Positions 4,644 to 13,444 of a DNA stretch of 42,602 nt are shown in pieces. Numbering within the stretch: the stretch's first letter is position 1; each line of letters opens with the position of its first letter. Position numbers and translations under genes: made by a program. The notes under the pieces are model-generated. The model worked only from the letters and a program-made list of their open reading frames with translations. It searched no databases and was not told the DNA's origin. Origin of the DNA: a virus; the IMG/VR virus record IMGVR_UViG_3300009157_000028, positions 1-42,602 of that record; one strand, given 5' to 3'.

Positions 4644-5825
4644 CTAAATAAATGCCGGTTTTTGCCACTTTTTTAGCCATTTTCCCTCATTGAACGACTT
4701 TTTGTTACGTAAAGCCTCCTTTACCGCTCGATCGATAGCTGAGTCACTAATCAATACGTAATAGTAAAGTTTCTTGAATTTGGTATCCATCCTATCAATT
4801 CGCCCCTGAGATTGAATGTAGTTTCTGTACGAATACGTCAAGGAATAGAGGATCATGGCGTCAGTTTCGGTGCAATTCCACCCTTCAGATCCCGAGTTGT
4901 ATTGCACTAGATACACCCATTTGTCAGTATCAGGCACCGGTTGCTTACGATGTCCATTCCATTCAGCTACCACAATCCCATCCGCTAGGCCCCTCAAGAT
5001 ATCCAATTCATAATTGAAATTGTAGAAGATAATCAATTTAGGGTGAGTCCTCATCAGCTCCATGACCATCTGAAGCCTACTAGGATCTGTATTGACGATC
5101 TTCCTCATCACACGAAAAAGCTCACCTACATCCTTAATAGGCCGATCCTCATAAGGATGCCAACGTTTCTTAGTAGCCATATTCCACTTATCATGGTCGT
5201 ACCCAACATCTAAGTAGTTCACCACTCGCTCGACATCGCTTTCGAATGGCATCTCTACTAAGATATCGTTCCTCAACTTCTCGAGACGATCCTCACCTAA
5301 GTAGCGTGAGATGATAGGGAATTTTACATACGGAACATAGACGACATGTTGACGCTTGAAGTCAGTGATGTTCTTGTACCAGCCGTTAGCTATGAAGACG
5401 GGGGCGTAGTCGATCCAGGTGTCTCCTGGGGTTGCACTGAGCAAGACCCAGCTGTTTCCTCTGGCAATTCCAATGAAAGACTTGACCCAAACTCCAGATC
5501 CAACAACACGCTGTTCGTCGAAAATGAAGAAGGCGTCCCGTATATCCGTATATTTACTAACATTGTTCCAGGAGTCAACGGTAATCTTTCCAGCATACGA
5601 GAAATCTCTCTTAGTGCTAATCCCAAATTTTGCAGCTGTTCCATCCCAATCGAGACTGTCACGCTTTTTAGCTGTGGTGATGACATATAGATCCTTCTCC
5701 TTGTGGTCCTTCAAATAATACGCTAATGCGGTTATCGTCTTACCCGTTCCTACTCCCCCATACAAGATCTTACCGCTAGCTAAGAGCTCTACAGCTATCT
5801 TCTGATGTTCCCTTAGTTCTATCAT
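4644..5825 (-). CDS. SF2 DEAD/DEAH-type (SNF2-like) DNA helicase
   Basis: A 393-residue protein with ATG at 5825 and a strong GGGAGGTGAG site. Motifs in order: Q-like REHQ near residue 6, Walker A GGVGTGKT near 23-30, motif Ia VITTAKKR, motif II FIFDEQ (DEAx-like), motif III LLSATPGD, motif IV region IIFYNF, motif V NSGSEGWNCTETD and motif VI QSQGRIDRMDT. These define an ATP-dependent superfamily 2 helicase or translocase close to phage SNF2/DEAD proteins. Such enzymes assist replication or recombination. With the VRR-NUC and RecB-like nucleases downstream it could form a DNA processing set. It follows a 75-residue unknown gene with 39 bp between. Confidence 0.9.
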   Translation of the reverse strand: MIELREHQKIAVELLASGKILYGGVGTGKTITALAYYLKDHKEKDLYVITTAKKRDSLDWDGTAAKFGISTKRDFSYAGKITVDSWNNVSKYTDIRDAFFIFDEQRVVGSGVWVKSFIGIARGNSWVLLSATPGDTWIDYAPVFIANGWYKNITDFKRQHVVYVPYVKFPIISRYLGEDRLEKLRNDILVEMPFESDVERVVNYLDVGYDHDKWNMATKKRWHPYEDRPIKDVGELFRVMRKIVNTDPSRLQMVMELMRTHPKLIIFYNFNYELDILRGLADGIVVAEWNGHRKQPVPDTDKWVYLVQYNSGSEGWNCTETDAMILYSLTYSYRNYIQSQGRIDRMDTKFKKLYYYVLISDSAIDRAVKEALRNKKSFNEGKWLKKWQKPAFI

Positions 5826-6169: not shown

Positions 6170-6346
6170 TCACTTGCTCTTCCGGTTCTTTCGGGCCTTC
6201 CGACATTGACGAACCTTCACCAGGACGTAGACGCCTCCGACGATGACTGCCATCTTGACCAGATCACTCTTGACCTGATTGATGTCACTCACCTTCTTGG
6301 CTTCCAACGTCTTGTTGACGATCTCCTCGACGGTTGAATCCTTCAT
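6170..6346 (-). CDS. Small single-pass membrane protein
   Basis: A 58-residue protein: acidic N-terminal helix (KDSTVEEIVNKTLEAKKV), a hydrophobic segment near residues 31-44 (KMAVIVGGVYVLVKV) and a basic tail (RKARKNRKSK). The positive tail suggests that the C-terminus stays in the cytoplasm. ATG at 6346 has AAGGAGG 5 nt upstream. It forms a full cassette with promoter 6376-6401 and terminator 6131-6163. Function unknown; tiny membrane proteins of this kind recur in the 17-20 kb region. Confidence 0.8.
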   Translation of the reverse strand: MKDSTVEEIVNKTLEAKKVSDINQVKSDLVKMAVIVGGVYVLVKVRQCRKARKNRKSK

Positions 6347-7149: not shown

Positions 7150-7497
7150 CTAAATGGTAGGAAGTTTGTAACCTTCTTCGCCTGCCAGCTCGCCCTGACG
7201 CTGAAAATAGTCCGCAATGGCCTTTAAATCCTCCTGTAAGAGGAGATTTCCACAATTATCGGCTACCATACCGATCATTGCCGCATACGTCAGCAGACAG
7301 GGACTGGCGAACTTATCCTGACGACGAATAACAACCGCATCAGATAAAACAAGACGATGCAGTTCATCTAGAAGCTGAAGAAATGTCGCATGGTTCATTC
7401 CACCACGAGACTTTAGTAATTCCTCAAACTCTTCACGTTTGAAAACGATGTATTTCTCATCGTCGATTGTCACATTGCTGATAATAACTGGTTCCAT
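7150..7497 (-). CDS. Hypothetical protein
   Basis: A 115-residue protein. ATG at 7497 (GGAGAAGTA upstream) is preferred over a longer start at 7542 that would overlap the previous gene. N-terminal strands (PVIISNVTIDDEKYIVFKRE) are followed by helices (EFEELLKSRG, FLQLLDELHRLVLSD) and a C-terminal helix (LKAIADYFQRQ). No known domain is recognised. It appears soluble and co-transcribed with the genes on both sides. Confidence 0.75.
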   Translation of the reverse strand: MEPVIISNVTIDDEKYIVFKREEFEELLKSRGGMNHATFLQLLDELHRLVLSDAVVIRRQDKFASPCLLTYAAMIGMVADNCGNLLLQEDLKAIADYFQRQGELAGEEGYKLPTI

Positions 7498-7772
7498 TAC
7501 TTCTCCTCGTATAGCTGCGCATTGATGTATTCTTCTTGACACTCTGGATGTGCCTGACCGTCAAGATGCGGTACCTTCATTTCATCGTCAGTCATTGCGA
7601 TTCCACAAAAGTAGCATTGAAGTTCCATCTTGTGTAGTCTCCTCTCGACGATCATGTAACAGATGAACCAAACAACTACGATCCAAATCAATAACATTAA
7701 CAATAATCCCCATTCTATTAAGTGAGTTCCTGTTGGTGTATACTGTCGTTCTTCATGTATTACGAATCGCAT
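7497..7772 (-). CDS. Membrane protein with C-terminal CxxC...HxxC zinc finger
   Basis: A 91-residue protein: a cytoplasm-sized N-terminus, a long hydrophobic segment (about residues 18-42) and a C-terminal domain with C53-x2-C56 and H75-x2-C78, a probable zinc site. ATG at 7772 follows AAAAGGAGGACC. It is the first protein gene after the structured RNA at 7790-8457, with no terminator between, so the RNA may be processed from the same transcript or act as a leader. Function unknown. Confidence 0.75.
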   Translation of the reverse strand: MRFVIHEERQYTPTGTHLIEWGLLLMLLIWIVVVWFICYMIVERRLHKMELQCYFCGIAMTDDEMKVPHLDGQAHPECQEEYINAQLYEEK

Positions 7773-7789: not shown

Positions 7790-8457
7790 AGTGCTCGCTG
7801 CCCTTCTTCGTCCAGTGGCGAGCGCACTGGGATGTTCCGGCAAGGGTCAACCGGGTACAACCTTTGTTTCCTTAACCGTGTAAAGCGAGGTAGGTGGGTT
7901 ACTCCGCAGAGCCCCGTTCGTTAACCTACCCCGCTGTCCTTTCGCTGATCCCGACTTGCCCGTGGGATCCAGTTGCATGATAGCCGGCAAGTCTAGGCTA
8001 TCCAAGCGCTCCACTCCAGCCTGGTATCCCCAGGAACAAGAGTACGAAAGCGGTTTTTTATGTACCTGTACACTGGGTGATCAACCCAATGCGCTCTGTG
8101 TGTCCTTCACAGCCATGTGATGGGCGAGACGCCTTAAAGCACTTCGTCTTCGTTTAAGAGTACCCAGGTCTTTTCCGGAACTCCCCATCACCGCTCTGAG
8201 CCTAAGGTCTATTTAACGTCGCTCAGACGACGTACATCACTCGCACAAGCTTACCACTACCAAGCGATACTAGATCGCTGGGCTTGTCCAAGATGATGAG
8301 CTCACCGTTTGACAGTTGTATTGCCCACTTCATCTTGCGCTTCATTATATCTCCCTTCGAAACAGGGCGGCCTGACAAATGCGCCGAGCGGTCGGAAACA
8401 CATTTTACAGACAGTAGGACTAGCGACCAAACCGTCCTAGCGCCCTAGAAAATCACG
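7790..8457 (-). ncRNA. Large ornate structured RNA candidate
   Basis: About 670 nt with high GC and many perfect stems. Two hairpins (7947-7952/7964-7969 and 7979-7985/7996-8002) have loops that are complementary over 8 bp (7953-7960 with 7986-7993), a kissing-loop arrangement. Stem 8133-8138/8153-8158 interlocks with 8127-8131/8145-8149 as an H-type pseudoknot. The loop of hairpin 8216-8221/8228-8233 pairs with 8195-8200. Other stems: 7790-7798/7818-7828, 7886-7895/7924-7933, 8020-8024/8030-8034, 8074-8078/8084-8088, 8117-8124/8184-8191, 8245-8250/8282-8287, 8263-8268/8274-8279, 8289-8296/8330-8337. Size, density and phage context resemble the GOLLD and ROOL classes; identity is inference. 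Promoter copy 3 lies upstream. Confidence 0.7.
8223..8345 (-). CDS. 40-residue ORF embedded in the structured RNA
   Basis: ATG at 8345 has a good site (AAGGGAG, 5 nt upstream), and the protein reads like a small beta-rich polypeptide (KWAIQLSNGELIILDKPSD, then a GSGKLVRVMYVV end). The same bases form the stems 8245-8250/8282-8287, 8263-8268/8274-8279 and 8289-8296/8330-8337, and the stop lies in a pseudoknot loop. Either the ORF is translated inside the RNA or it is an accident of a conserved structure. I cannot decide from one sequence. Confidence 0.45.
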   Translation of the reverse strand: MKRKMKWAIQLSNGELIILDKPSDLVSLGSGKLVRVMYVV

Positions 8458-9185: not shown

Positions 9186-9654
9186 ACGTCGTCGCTGGGT
9201 GCTCATGAATGGAATACTTTCGTTCCAATGCGTCCTCTTCAATCGTGACGAAGAGCGATTGGAGATACGCCTTAGTTCCCGACTTGCCGCCAACGTTCCA
9301 GTCGTAACCACGCGCAATAAGGTCAGCAGTCTTGATATCTGCCCAATCCAAAATCTCAACAGAGCCTTCATCAAGCTGCGTACGAGTCGTAGATGTAAGA
9401 AGCACAACTCGAGGAGGTCGGTTGCTAAAGTTGACCGAGACCGAGATGTACGGAGTATCCTCGTCTCCTTCTTCACGAGCCTCCAAATATCGGACGTTCC
9501 AACCATCTCGAAGCATTGTCTTAGCGACATCCTCGGTGAGGATAACTGCGAAATTACGATCACCTTCCCTATTATATTGGCCCTCCTTCCCCGCAAAATT
9601 ACGGAAGATAATTCGGGCATCTTCGATCATGAAGTTTTTAGCTTGGTCAGCCAT
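9175..9654 (-). CDS. Probable single-stranded DNA-binding protein
   Basis: A 159-residue protein with ATG at 9654 and AAAGGAG upstream. The sequence runs IEDARIIFRNFAGKEG, DRNFAVIL, DGWNVRYL, SNRPPRVVLLTS and YDWNVGGKSGTKAYLQSLF, a pattern I associate with a phage family annotated as gp32-like or ssDNA-binding and encoded beside phage DNA polymerases. Beta-strand-rich segments and exposed aromatic and basic residues fit an OB-type fold. It overlaps the end of the polymerase fusion gene by 8 bp, which supports a replication role. Assignment rests on recall and context, not on a diagnostic motif. Confidence 0.6.
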   Translation of the reverse strand: MADQAKNFMIEDARIIFRNFAGKEGQYNREGDRNFAVILTEDVAKTMLRDGWNVRYLEAREEGDEDTPYISVSVNFSNRPPRVVLLTSTTRTQLDEGSVEILDWADIKTADLIARGYDWNVGGKSGTKAYLQSLFVTIEEDALERKYSIHEHPATTYGD

Positions 9655-12600
9655 TCACAAACTCCTTTAGTGGTACGAATTGTTCAATAGCTCTGATTGC
9701 GTCTGTCTTCAGTCTTTCGAAATAATCCATGTCTGTGAATAGCTCATCGATACCATCTCGATAATGAGCCATATCACGCTCGATCCACTTGTAGCCTTTA
9801 GTTCCAGTTACGTGATATTTCTTTCCTTCCTTAATACGCCAAAGATCTCCGCCGTCGTAACGAACTGGCATGAAACTACCCGTACGTCCTACATGCTGCA
9901 TGTCAGAGATATCTTCAGCACCAATCTTGTCTAGGTACATGGTCCCCTGTGTGACATGCTTCGTCTCGCACAAGTCGTCGAATACGAGTGGCTCGTGAGT
10001 GAATAGTTCTTTGAAGACGTACGGGTGCTGAAACTGCGAACCCACAGCCACCCAGCCGCGATCGCTACGAGCAATATATACTGCATCGTTGACGAGAACG
10101 AACTTCTGGTAGGTTGTTTCATACTCGAAGTCATAACCATACTCCTTTCCGAAGTTAATGATGAAGTCGATTATCTCTTGTCCACCCTTAGGCGCATCTG
10201 GTGGAATAACAACCTTGATCGAGTCGGTCTTGATGTGAACAACTTGATATCCACGATCTTGCACTGCATGCTTCACATCGATCATAAACAATGCGCCACG
10301 CTTTGCTACAATGTTGTCTCTGTTTCGCTTATCTCTGAAAAGATTGTCGAAACGAGCGCTTGTAAGTCCGTAGACGATATTGATGACGATCTTAAGAGCA
10401 TATGAAAGCGCTTCAGCACTGCTATCGTCAGCCTCAGCATCGACAAGAAACTTTCCGAGCTTACCTTCAAGGAGATTTCTGGCCTCGCTGTAGTTCTTAT
10501 GCTTGATTGCCATACGAGCTTGTTTGAGGGCACTAAAGTTTTTGGTGTACGGCCCGAAAAGATTAAGTTGTTCGATACTCGTCGGATGCATACTCGCCAC
10601 GTCCAGAAGTACAACGTTCTCGTAGTATCCTGGTTCGGAATAAACGTAGCCACCCTCACCTGTGATTTCGTCACGATACGTGCTTTCCTTTCCGTCAAAT
10701 ACATAACCTGGGAACCGCTCACTCAGGTCGGTATAAATGAAATTTCTCTGTGGATTTCGCTCAAGTCCGAATATGATTCTCGCAGTATGTTGCTGTGTTG
10801 TGTGATTCACTGAGAGTCCAGACAGCTCAGCTAGAATCTCACGAGCAACGAAATCTTGATAACGATCTTCGAATACAGCCTCAGTAGCAATCACATCATT
10901 GACGCAGTATTCCTCTACCTTAGACCACATACCTGGTTCTACCGGCTGGTCCCAAGGGAGGTCAAGCTCCATATGATGGATGCCAAGCTCAATCTGAAAC
11001 TTCTTCAATCCTTGCTTCTTCGAGCTAAAGTCGTAAATATCCGCATAGGAAACATTGTAAGCTTCCCCGAACAATGAATTAGGATTGGCATTTCCTTCAT
11101 AGATGATTCTCTGACTCAACTCGAAAAGTTCTTCTAAACTGTACCCCATGTACCTTGCGTAAAGAATATGATTGTCGTACCGACGATTATTGAAGCCAAT
11201 CAGACGCTGTTGTAGCAAAGGCTCAATCTCATCTGCTGTGGGATTGATCATGCGAACTACGTTAGGATCTCCTCGAGCCTTCCAACACACAACAAAGAGA
11301 TTGGAGTAGACCTCAACATCGAAGAAGACAATAGGCTTGTCGTCCACATCATGAGGTTCAGTCATATTCGTCTTACCAACGAACTTCATGGTCTGGACAA
11401 CTTTAATACAAGTTGCGGCTTGATTAGTGCTTCTCATTGCGAAGGTCAAGATAGTTGATCGCATGTCACTTACGTCGTAACTTAGTCCACTCTCGTATGC
11501 TTCCTCAAGGATATGATGAATGAAGTCGATAGACGGCTTAGTTCCGGGGTGAATCTCCTTTCTCAAATTTCTATCGATGAGATCCCGGATACCCTTTTCC
11601 GTTTGCACATTTTTTGTATCGATCATTCTCTTCTGCTTCCTTGGTAGGCCACCAGTAAGAGTAGAGATATCAAGATTATTACACTTCGTAAGTCTCCTTC
11701 GAATTGCACTATCCCCAAGGAGAGTTTTAACTTCAATGCCCACATCAAGAATATTATCCAAATCAGACACGACACCGCTATAAAGATAGTGAAGATGAAT
11801 TCCTCTTCCACTTTGACTCAGTTCGGTGTAAGTGGGCGGCATTTTGGATGCTTCTTCGATATTTCTCTCTAGATCTTTCTCACCGTTCTCATCAGTAAGA
11901 TCGAAGTCAATAACGATATGTTCTTCCGGCACCTTCACATAATGAAGTTTAGTTGGATCAATATCAGCTAGAGTTGAAACAACGTTCTCCCATTTTCTTC
12001 CTGGAGCACCACTTGGCTTCGCCTCTTGTGCCGGCTGATCAGGATATAGATTATTGAAAGCAGACCCATGAGTAACCGGATCATAATCATTAAGTTCAAT
12101 AACGTACGAAGTATCCGGAACGAACGGGGTAGGTCCTTGAGTTGGGAGTCCTTTGAATCCGATGTAGACACTTCGATGCTCCTTCTCTCCAATGGTGTGA
12201 CGATCCTTGAATTCCTCGAAGTAACTACTGAGTTCATCTCGAACCTCATGGTATTGAAGGCGCTTTACAATATTAGCTTCCTCGCAGTACTCCTTGTACA
12301 TTTCCCAAGCACGCCTGAGCTGAATACCATCTTGCGCCTTGAAGATATCGAAGTTAGCCTCTATGAAGTTATAGAAAGTATCAGTCAACATCATCATCTT
12401 CGTCGGAATATAGTTCTCGTAATAGAACTTCCCCATCTCTCTATACCGCCGGAGACATTTCGCTGCAATCGCCCCGAGCTCATAGTTGATGTTCTCTACG
12501 AGAATATGATACCGACCAGGCTCGATCTTTACGCCTGTTGGATGCACATCGATAAGCCGTCTGGTATTACCAGCTTTTGCATCACTGATCTTGACTGGCT

Positions 12601-13444
12601 TGTTCGTACCGACAATCACAAAAGCATTAGGTCTGATGGTGAACGCTGATCTGTACTTCACATTGATAGTCATCGAGTCATGACCCACGATCGAATTCAG
12701 CTTTGTGTTATCCTCGACTCGAGACAAATCACCATCGTGTTGAATCGCTACAAGGGGATTCGATTGGAATGCTTCCATAGCAAATGTTCCATTATTGCTG
12801 GTCAGAGCCTTAGCTTCAAATGTAGCTACATATCCTTCGAACAGTTTCTCAATGACATCGATGACTGTGGACTTACCAGTTCCTGGTGGCCCATAGAACA
12901 CAAGGAATTTCTGGAGCCACTTCGAGTCCCCAGATACAATGGCTCCAATAGCCCACTCGATTTTATCTCGCTCGTCTGGAGAATATAGCACACCCAACAA
13001 CTCATCCCAAGCGTCCGTCTTCCCTTCCTCGAGAGAATATGGTAGACGCTTACTGACATAATCCTTCTTCTTGACATCTGTGTTAGCGAATGTGATGTTC
13101 TCATCCAAAGGATGGTAGTTACCACTGTCAGGAAGATTACGAATGAACTTGTTGAATCGTTCCCAGCTACCTGTACTAAAGTTCCTTGTCACCAAAGGTT
13201 CAATGATCGCACCGTTTTTCTTAGCGTCATTGACATAGTCGTATAAATCAGAGTCTACAATTCTCTGTACATCATATTCATTAGTGGACCACATACCAAG
13301 ATCATCATCCCAAACGGCATAAAATGCTCCGCCTCGAACCATAAGATCATCGAAACTATCAACGATCCAATCAGGATATGCTTGAATGATGCCTTTAGAT
13401 TCTTTAGTCTTAATTTTATAAAAATCCACCAGCACCCCCTTCAT
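9647..13444 (-). CDS. SF3 helicase / AEP-like primase / family B DNA polymerase fusion
   Basis: A 1265-residue replication protein. Residues 185-192 (GPPGTGKS) are a Walker A box in an SF3-type helicase region that ends near 300 with GTNKPVK and an Arg-finger-like NTRRLIDV. Residues 511-516 (VIDFDL) and 545-553 (SGRGIHLHY) match motifs I and II of archaeo-eukaryotic primases, with GIEVK as a possible motif III. A 3'-5' exonuclease follows: FFDVEVYSN (707-715), GFNNRRYDNHI and YCVND (846-850). Polymerase motifs are A DVASMHPTSI (948-957), B KIVINIVYG (1018-1026) and C IKTDSIKV (1071-1078), where Lys replaces the first Asp of DTDS. The start is ATG 13444 (ATGA overlap) or GTG 13429, which sits behind AAGGGGGTG. 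Confidence 0.85.
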   Translation of the reverse strand: MKGVLVDFYKIKTKESKGIIQAYPDWIVDSFDDLMVRGGAFYAVWDDDLGMWSTNEYDVQRIVDSDLYDYVNDAKKNGAIIEPLVTRNFSTGSWERFNKFIRNLPDSGNYHPLDENITFANTDVKKKDYVSKRLPYSLEEGKTDAWDELLGVLYSPDERDKIEWAIGAIVSGDSKWLQKFLVFYGPPGTGKSTVIDVIEKLFEGYVATFEAKALTSNNGTFAMEAFQSNPLVAIQHDGDLSRVEDNTKLNSIVGHDSMTINVKYRSAFTIRPNAFVIVGTNKPVKISDAKAGNTRRLIDVHPTGVKIEPGRYHILVENINYELGAIAAKCLRRYREMGKFYYENYIPTKMMMLTDTFYNFIEANFDIFKAQDGIQLRRAWEMYKEYCEEANIVKRLQYHEVRDELSSYFEEFKDRHTIGEKEHRSVYIGFKGLPTQGPTPFVPDTSYVIELNDYDPVTHGSAFNNLYPDQPAQEAKPSGAPGRKWENVVSTLADIDPTKLHYVKVPEEHIVIDFDLTDENGEKDLERNIEEASKMPPTYTELSQSGRGIHLHYLYSGVVSDLDNILDVGIEVKTLLGDSAIRRRLTKCNNLDISTLTGGLPRKQKRMIDTKNVQTEKGIRDLIDRNLRKEIHPGTKPSIDFIHHILEEAYESGLSYDVSDMRSTILTFAMRSTNQAATCIKVVQTMKFVGKTNMTEPHDVDDKPIVFFDVEVYSNLFVVCWKARGDPNVVRMINPTADEIEPLLQQRLIGFNNRRYDNHILYARYMGYSLEELFELSQRIIYEGNANPNSLFGEAYNVSYADIYDFSSKKQGLKKFQIELGIHHMELDLPWDQPVEPGMWSKVEEYCVNDVIATEAVFEDRYQDFVAREILAELSGLSVNHTTQQHTARIIFGLERNPQRNFIYTDLSERFPGYVFDGKESTYRDEITGEGGYVYSEPGYYENVVLLDVASMHPTSIEQLNLFGPYTKNFSALKQARMAIKHKNYSEARNLLEGKLGKFLVDAEADDSSAEALSYALKIVINIVYGLTSARFDNLFRDKRNRDNIVAKRGALFMIDVKHAVQDRGYQVVHIKTDSIKVVIPPDAPKGGQEIIDFIINFGKEYGYDFEYETTYQKFVLVNDAVYIARSDRGWVAVGSQFQHPYVFKELFTHEPLVFDDLCETKHVTQGTMYLDKIGAEDISDMQHVGRTGSFMPVRYDGGDLWRIKEGKKYHVTGTKGYKWIERDMAHYRDGIDELFTDMDYFERLKTDAIRAIEQFVPLKEFVNG

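Follow-up and report, generated by a model that had tools for sequence, protein, structure and literature searches.

A Pistol ribozyme followed by a large, covarying structured RNA in a siphovirus lineage

A large structured RNA follows a Pistol self-cleaving ribozyme in about 30 phages, which make up a family of ~30 distinct records from one siphovirus lineage. They share one arrangement: the ribozyme, a hairpin (CUGUGAAGG..CACAG), the element ACAAAAAACCG, a covarying core helix and two hairpins with complementary loops. The RNA is a Pistol plus something absent from Rfam 15, and it resembles the GOLLD and ROOL RNAs in kind. On balance, we favour a stand-alone non-coding RNA gene whose 5′ end would be made by the Pistol and whose product would act most likely in trans.

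Strand, ribozyme and anatomy of the RNA

The region under study lies in IMG/VR record IMGVR_UViG_3300009157_000028, within a window (the whole stretch of DNA analysed) of 42,602 nt, for which an earlier note had described an ornate plus-strand RNA at 7790–8457. The correct strand is minus: the Pistol and all covarying homologues lie there, co-directional with the flanking genes (a primase/polymerase at 9647–13444, a helicase at 4644–5825 and a QDE-1-like RNA polymerase at 325–2994, all on the minus strand). Against dinucleotide shuffles, the minus strand folds with a z-score of −2.75 (1/20 shuffles as good) and the plus strand with −1.08 (4/20). Folding energy by itself is weak evidence and covariation is stronger, but as the Pistol, the covariation, the gene direction and the z-scores all point to minus, we reject a plus-strand RNA.

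The ribozyme, which had been overlooked, is the one family found in an Rfam search of the 42.6-kb window (Pistol, RF02679; 8232–8161, minus strand; 43.0 bits against a cut-off of 34.5). Its score is above the gathering threshold, the P1 hairpin, P1-loop pseudoknot and P3 are all present, and relatives also have Pistols that score above the threshold. The contact between 8222–8227 and 8195–8200 pointed out earlier is real and is the P1-loop pseudoknot of the RF02679 match. With the described Pistol class (PMC4604425), the window copy shares the covariance model, P1, the pseudoknot, the conserved TTAGGC..AGAGCG and P3. The features at this side are as follows.

8365–8445, minus strand: module M, a three-way-junction RNA (GGGCGCUAG..YUACUGUCUG..GUCAGGCCGCCC), which in the window stands alone ahead of the small ORF
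8223–8345, minus strand: 40-aa ORF (MKRKMKWAIQLSNGELIILDKPSDLVSLGSGKLVRVMYVV) with Shine–Dalgarno sequence GAAGGGAG and a TGA stop within the Pistol P1 loop
8116–8232, minus strand: Pistol self-cleaving ribozyme RF02679 (the covariance-model match itself is 8232–8161)
8232–8228/8221–8217, minus strand: Pistol P1
8226–8221 with 8201–8196, minus strand: Pistol pseudoknot, CTGAGC with GCTCAG
8191–8184/8124–8117, minus strand: Pistol P3, 8 bp, enclosing a 59-nt insert
8127–8158, minus strand: H-type pseudoknot in the P3 insert (CTTAAA/TTTAAG with AGACG/CGTCT), by direct inspection

The interlocking stems noticed earlier at 8158–8127 are this H-type pseudoknot, which is not conserved; most relatives have another insert there. 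In all 29 members whose sequence covers the ribozyme, P3 is an unbroken stem of 5–12 bp; the inserts that it encloses are 4–170 nt long. The P3 loop of a usual Pistol is short, whereas nearly all members of this family carry structured inserts of 39–170 nt, and a further difference is the conserved RNA of 260 nt to ~1 kb that comes after the ribozyme. P2, usually four pairs, consists in the window of GACC with a weak 3′ partner, and many members have one mismatch in it. Cleavage is predicted between A8116 and U8115. The dinucleotide at this site is A-U in the window and in about one-third of members and G-U in most, G-U being the common case at Pistol cleavage sites and no absolute requirement. 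Active cleavage by the window copy is uncertain, because A-U stands where most members have G-U. Pistols show some variation at two junction nucleotides (PMC4604425), although these are perhaps not the pair that is A-U here.

Throughout the family, the ORF ahead of the ribozyme often ends within it (stop codon at 8225–8223 in the window; also L011, L026, L060 and L094), with TGA at +8 and TAA or TAG at about +18 to +22, so that a terminating ribosome would cover P1 and the pseudoknot.

The extent proposed earlier for the ornate RNA holds in part. The RNA proper is approximately 8115–7790, with the ribozyme (8232–8116) ahead of it; 8457–8233 lies outside the main RNA and contains the separate three-way-junction module (8445–8365) and the 40-aa ORF (8345–8223). 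The many stems without a normal gene are real, and the stretch is not occupied by any conserved protein gene.

7790–8115, minus strand: large structured RNA, the expected Pistol product, ~326 nt to the Shine–Dalgarno sequence of the next gene; 3′ end inferred
8096–8112, minus strand: H1 hairpin, CTGTG-AAGGACA-CACAG, with a covarying stem (CTGTG/CACAG, CGGAG/CTCCG, CGGTG/CACCG)
8091–8071, minus strand: H2 hairpin, within 8052–8091
8072–8061, minus strand: mini-hairpin TGTACAGGTACA
8061–8052, minus strand: conserved A-rich strand ATAAAAAACC
7939–8050, minus strand: core domain, closed by helix CTTTCGT 8050–8044/GCGAAAG 7945–7939
8013–8043, minus strand: H3 hairpin in the core
7979–8002, minus strand: H4 hairpin, GATAGCC/GGCTATC, with loop GACTTGCC (7993–7986), the first half of the loop–loop contact
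7947–7969, minus strand: H5 hairpin, GATCCC/GGGATC, with loop GGCAAGTC (7960–7953), the second half of the loop–loop contact
7938–7936, minus strand: conserved GAC directly 3′ of the core helix
7884–7935, minus strand: H6, a long G-rich/C-rich hairpin (AGCGGGGTAGGT..ACCTACCTCGCT) immediately after the GAC
7793–7830, minus strand: possible 3′ H-type pseudoknot, formed by a CCAGTG/CACTGG hairpin and by potential pairing of its loop, CGCTCGC, to GCGAGC 7798–7793
7497–7772, minus strand: next gene, 91 aa, with a membrane segment and CxxC motifs; nearly all relatives have another gene here

The two loops of H4 and H5 are, as had been observed, perfectly complementary over 8 nt, and each closes a perfect stem. 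By inspection, several relatives have an H6-like hairpin at the equivalent position; the possible 3′ pseudoknot is seen in one sequence only and lies just ahead of the Shine–Dalgarno sequence of the next gene. A direct look for relatives of the 91-aa protein found none.

Other identities for the stretch were considered. A coding region is rejected as short frames are not kept among relatives, and the only recurring peptide-like stretch, MxVKxTQSA, is rejected as coding because changes in H1 loop length break its frame. A tRNA or tmRNA is likewise rejected: ARAGORN makes no call in the window and yields just weak or permissive matches in homologues.

Compensatory change in the fold

The earlier note had proposed that homologous loci be examined for compensatory changes, and such changes are found in the homologues. 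All 26 sequences keep the H1 pairing, and two of its five base pairs show double changes. In permutation tests, which ignore relatedness and therefore give indicative figures, although the sequences are very diverged, the core helix (located via the conserved GAC after it, with 5′ strands permuted among members) has a mean score of 12.3 against 5.9 (sd 0.6), and the loop–loop contact (hairpins annotated by hand) scores 13.9 against 8.2 (sd 0.7); none of 20,000 permutations was as high in either case. An unsupervised loop–loop test on predicted loops gave a combined p of 8e-9, and shuffles of the inner domain never produced an equally good loop–loop match (0/200). The loop pairs keep their complementarity as their sequence changes, from GACTTGCC/GGCAAGTC in the window to CTTGCC/GGCAAG, TCTTGT/ACAAGA, CCTTGCT/AGCAAGG, CTCGTA/TACGAG, ATCTCA/TGAGAT, ACAAAC/GTTTGT and others.

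Compensatory change in three separate elements (H1, the core helix and the loop–loop contact) indicates selection on the fold. This largely refutes the idea that an ordinary operon-cutting Pistol is followed by a structured spacer without a function of its own, which we regard as improbable although phage Pistols often lie between genes and the downstream fold has no known function. A covariance model of the core (R1) recovers members outside its alignment (L002, E = 4e-6; L028, 3e-9; L117, 5e-11), misses two divergent members (L009 and L068) and gives no significant match in eight primase relatives for which the Pistol search was negative.

Distribution in the phage lineage

Among IMG/VR relatives of the primase, six phages carry a Pistol at the equivalent place; downstream of the ribozyme there is almost no blastn similarity among relatives, yet the order of structural elements is identical. 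Scans with two kinds of pattern, one for the Pistol and one combining H1 with the A-rich strand, extended the family to ~30. Blastn of core consensuses against cultured phages matched only Microbacterium phages Count (MH153801) and Camille (MH153800), both of them lytic siphoviruses of Cluster EL; the paper that describes them (PMC7302621) does not use the word ‘ribozyme’. In Count, the annotated hypothetical protein of gene 88 (AWN03455.1; L108:3147–3284) overlies the structured RNA and is probably no gene.

The RNA polymerase and the primase are each present in 27 of the 30 carrier records (those lacking a gene include short fragments), the large terminase is 71–91% identical among carriers having one, and wherever a record shows all three, they lie on one strand in the constant order primase, RNA, RNA polymerase. 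Within this one branch the RNA is stable; neighbouring phages lack it. Several primase relatives without a Pistol also lack the core, and ten cultured relatives (Streptomyces, Gordonia, Arthrobacter, Rhodococcus and Lactococcus phages) yielded neither a Pistol above cut-off nor a significant match to the core; Curtobacterium phages carry a Pistol and a shorter RNA, which the core model does not recognize. As related phages have the same primase and RNA polymerase without the RNA, it must be dispensable in the wider lineage. Inheritance with the phage is a better fit than a mobile element, because the carriers all belong to a single phage lineage, in which gene order is constant.

The neighbouring polymerase raises two further readings. 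An obligate partnership of the RNA with this enzyme is rejected, as sampled phages that have the enzyme outside the family lack the RNA. The RNA could also be a replicon copied by the polymerase, with the Pistol cutting multimers as in viroid-like RNAs, given that the enzyme has the DFDGD motif, accompanies the RNA in most carriers and is annotated in some records as an RNA-dependent RNA polymerase. We consider this scarcely credible: the polymerase occurs in 250 phage records, the sampled ones outside the family being without the RNA; there is a single ribozyme, on one strand only; and no ligase or circular form was seen. Moreover, YonO, a relative of such QDE-1-like polymerases, is DNA-dependent.

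Primary sequence and flanking genes change among members while the structure persists. The RNA itself ranges from ~260 nt to ~1 kb, insert lengths also vary widely, and clustering the first downstream gene of 28 members gives 26 clusters. A stand-alone RNA is most likely because structure and position are conserved while these genes change, and this turnover argues against a leader for one gene. A cis-acting 5′ leader, in which the Pistol splits off the downstream genes and the fold protects or regulates a 5′-OH mRNA, is possible because the next gene starts right behind the last hairpin in some members: in L060, L075, L115, L117, L118 and L119, a gene with a Shine–Dalgarno sequence starts ~230–270 nt after H1, close behind that hairpin. 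Other Pistols also lie directly between operon genes, as in L086, where each of three tandem Pistols has a short gene after it. Nevertheless, the conservation of the kissing contact and core helix exceeds what a stability leader needs, and the RNA holds its genome position although its neighbours turn over; we judge the leader, the main rival, unlikely, if still to be taken seriously.

Relation to other RNAs and proposed role

The earlier note had suggested a GOLLD or ROOL member or a new class. The large, ornate RNA that it described is supported, and the loop–loop contact is conserved; membership is rejected by model searches. The Rfam covariance search that it called for, in which the GOLLD model is that of the conserved 3′ domain, gives no GOLLD or ROOL match in the window region (E ≤ 10), nor is there one in eight homologous loci (E ≤ 5), whereas the same search finds a GOLLD relative at 130 bits in L084. 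GOLLD (RF02032) is likewise large, phage-borne and ornate, with kissing contacts and a conserved core beside a variable region that receives other RNAs, in its case tRNAs; ROOL, also phage-borne and large, has pseudoknots and kissing loops and no known protein partner (PMC12286853). The window RNA differs from both in lacking a model match and in having a Pistol at its 5′ end, a ribozyme that belongs to neither family as described (PMC12286853). From GOLLD, which is often tRNA-adjacent, it differs further in its smaller size and in that ARAGORN finds no tRNA in the window. Despite the likenesses, and the GOLLD relative near another Pistol-headed RNA in L084, a divergent GOLLD or ROOL member is therefore very improbable. 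Theta ribozymes offer another parallel (PMC10879173), as there, too, a phage trims a non-coding RNA with a small self-cleaving ribozyme; these have an HDV-like fold and act at tRNA 3′ trailers, whereas here a Pistol heads a large RNA. The searched literature contained no description of a Pistol heading a large conserved RNA; an earlier mention is possible in the 2015 Pistol discovery paper or the 2017 survey of 224 RNAs.

Module M looks like an exchangeable RNA module. Its consensus is GGGCGCUA..YUACWGUCUG..GUCAGRCCGCCC, also given as GYGCUAR..YUACWGUCUG..GUCAGRCCRC. It lies inside Pistol P3 in most carriers having it (L002, L003, L005, L011, L033, L075, L111 and L119), is free-standing in the window, L114, L047 and L015 (the last without a Pistol), and has extra copies in L032, L033 and L113. 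The P3 insert of L047 (minus strand) has a tRNA-like fold, with an acceptor-like stem continuous with P3 and a T-arm GTGGGGTTCGATTCCCAC; ARAGORN makes no call there.

Pistols accompany other RNAs as well. A second Pistol-headed conserved RNA, of ~450 nt, occurs in L121–L154 (mostly Clostridia contigs, of Oscillospiraceae and Lachnospiraceae; for example, L126, L143 and L149), with an integrase-like gene after it in L126. In L084, a Pistol (6282–6338, plus strand) is followed by a different structured RNA, and the GOLLD relative (7808–8220, plus strand; cut-off 150 bits) lies ~1.5 kb downstream on the same strand. Pistols with long conserved non-coding stretches unlike the window family were seen in L050, L053/L137 (Prochlorococcus) and L078, and further such groups in L036, L052, L061, L070 and L097 and in L023/L142 (Lysinibacillus). 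Tandem Pistols occur in L017 (four within 1.5 kb) and L092 (two).

For the favoured stand-alone RNA, we infer transcription, cleavage and trans action from sequence. A minus-strand operon would be read through the 40-aa ORF into the Pistol, which would cut the nascent transcript just after that ORF, presumably leaving a 2′,3′-cyclic phosphate on the upstream mRNA and a 5′-OH at U8115. The cut would define the 5′ end of the large RNA, which would fold into H1/H2, the A-rich strand, the helix-closed core with its kissing contact and the terminal G-rich hairpin. Once mature, the RNA would most likely work in trans in the infected cell, with a structural or RNP function like that proposed for other large ornate phage RNAs. 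We count against trans action the A-U cleavage site and weak P2 of the window, a length variation that is wide for a fixed machine, the leader-like genes right behind the last hairpin in several members, and the dispensability of the RNA in the wider lineage. The kissing contact may be intramolecular or, as in the RNA cages of GOLLD and ROOL (PMC12286853), may join separate molecules. More tentatively, we propose a new class with a Pistol-made 5′ end, a P3 loop that serves as a landing site for exchangeable modules, and kissing loops that assemble it, by contacts inside one molecule or across several, into an RNA particle, compact or multimeric, with a trans-acting role in infected actinobacteria.

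Pistol ribozymes are common in phages and, to our knowledge, their biological role is unknown. Their tie to a large covarying RNA in ~30 genomes makes a concrete role, the making of a 5′ end, testable, and as two sequenced lytic phages, Count and Camille, carry the RNA, this can be done in culture. The family adds to the few known large ornate phage RNAs, GOLLD and ROOL, a structured class with what would be a built-in processing step and a variable insert site.
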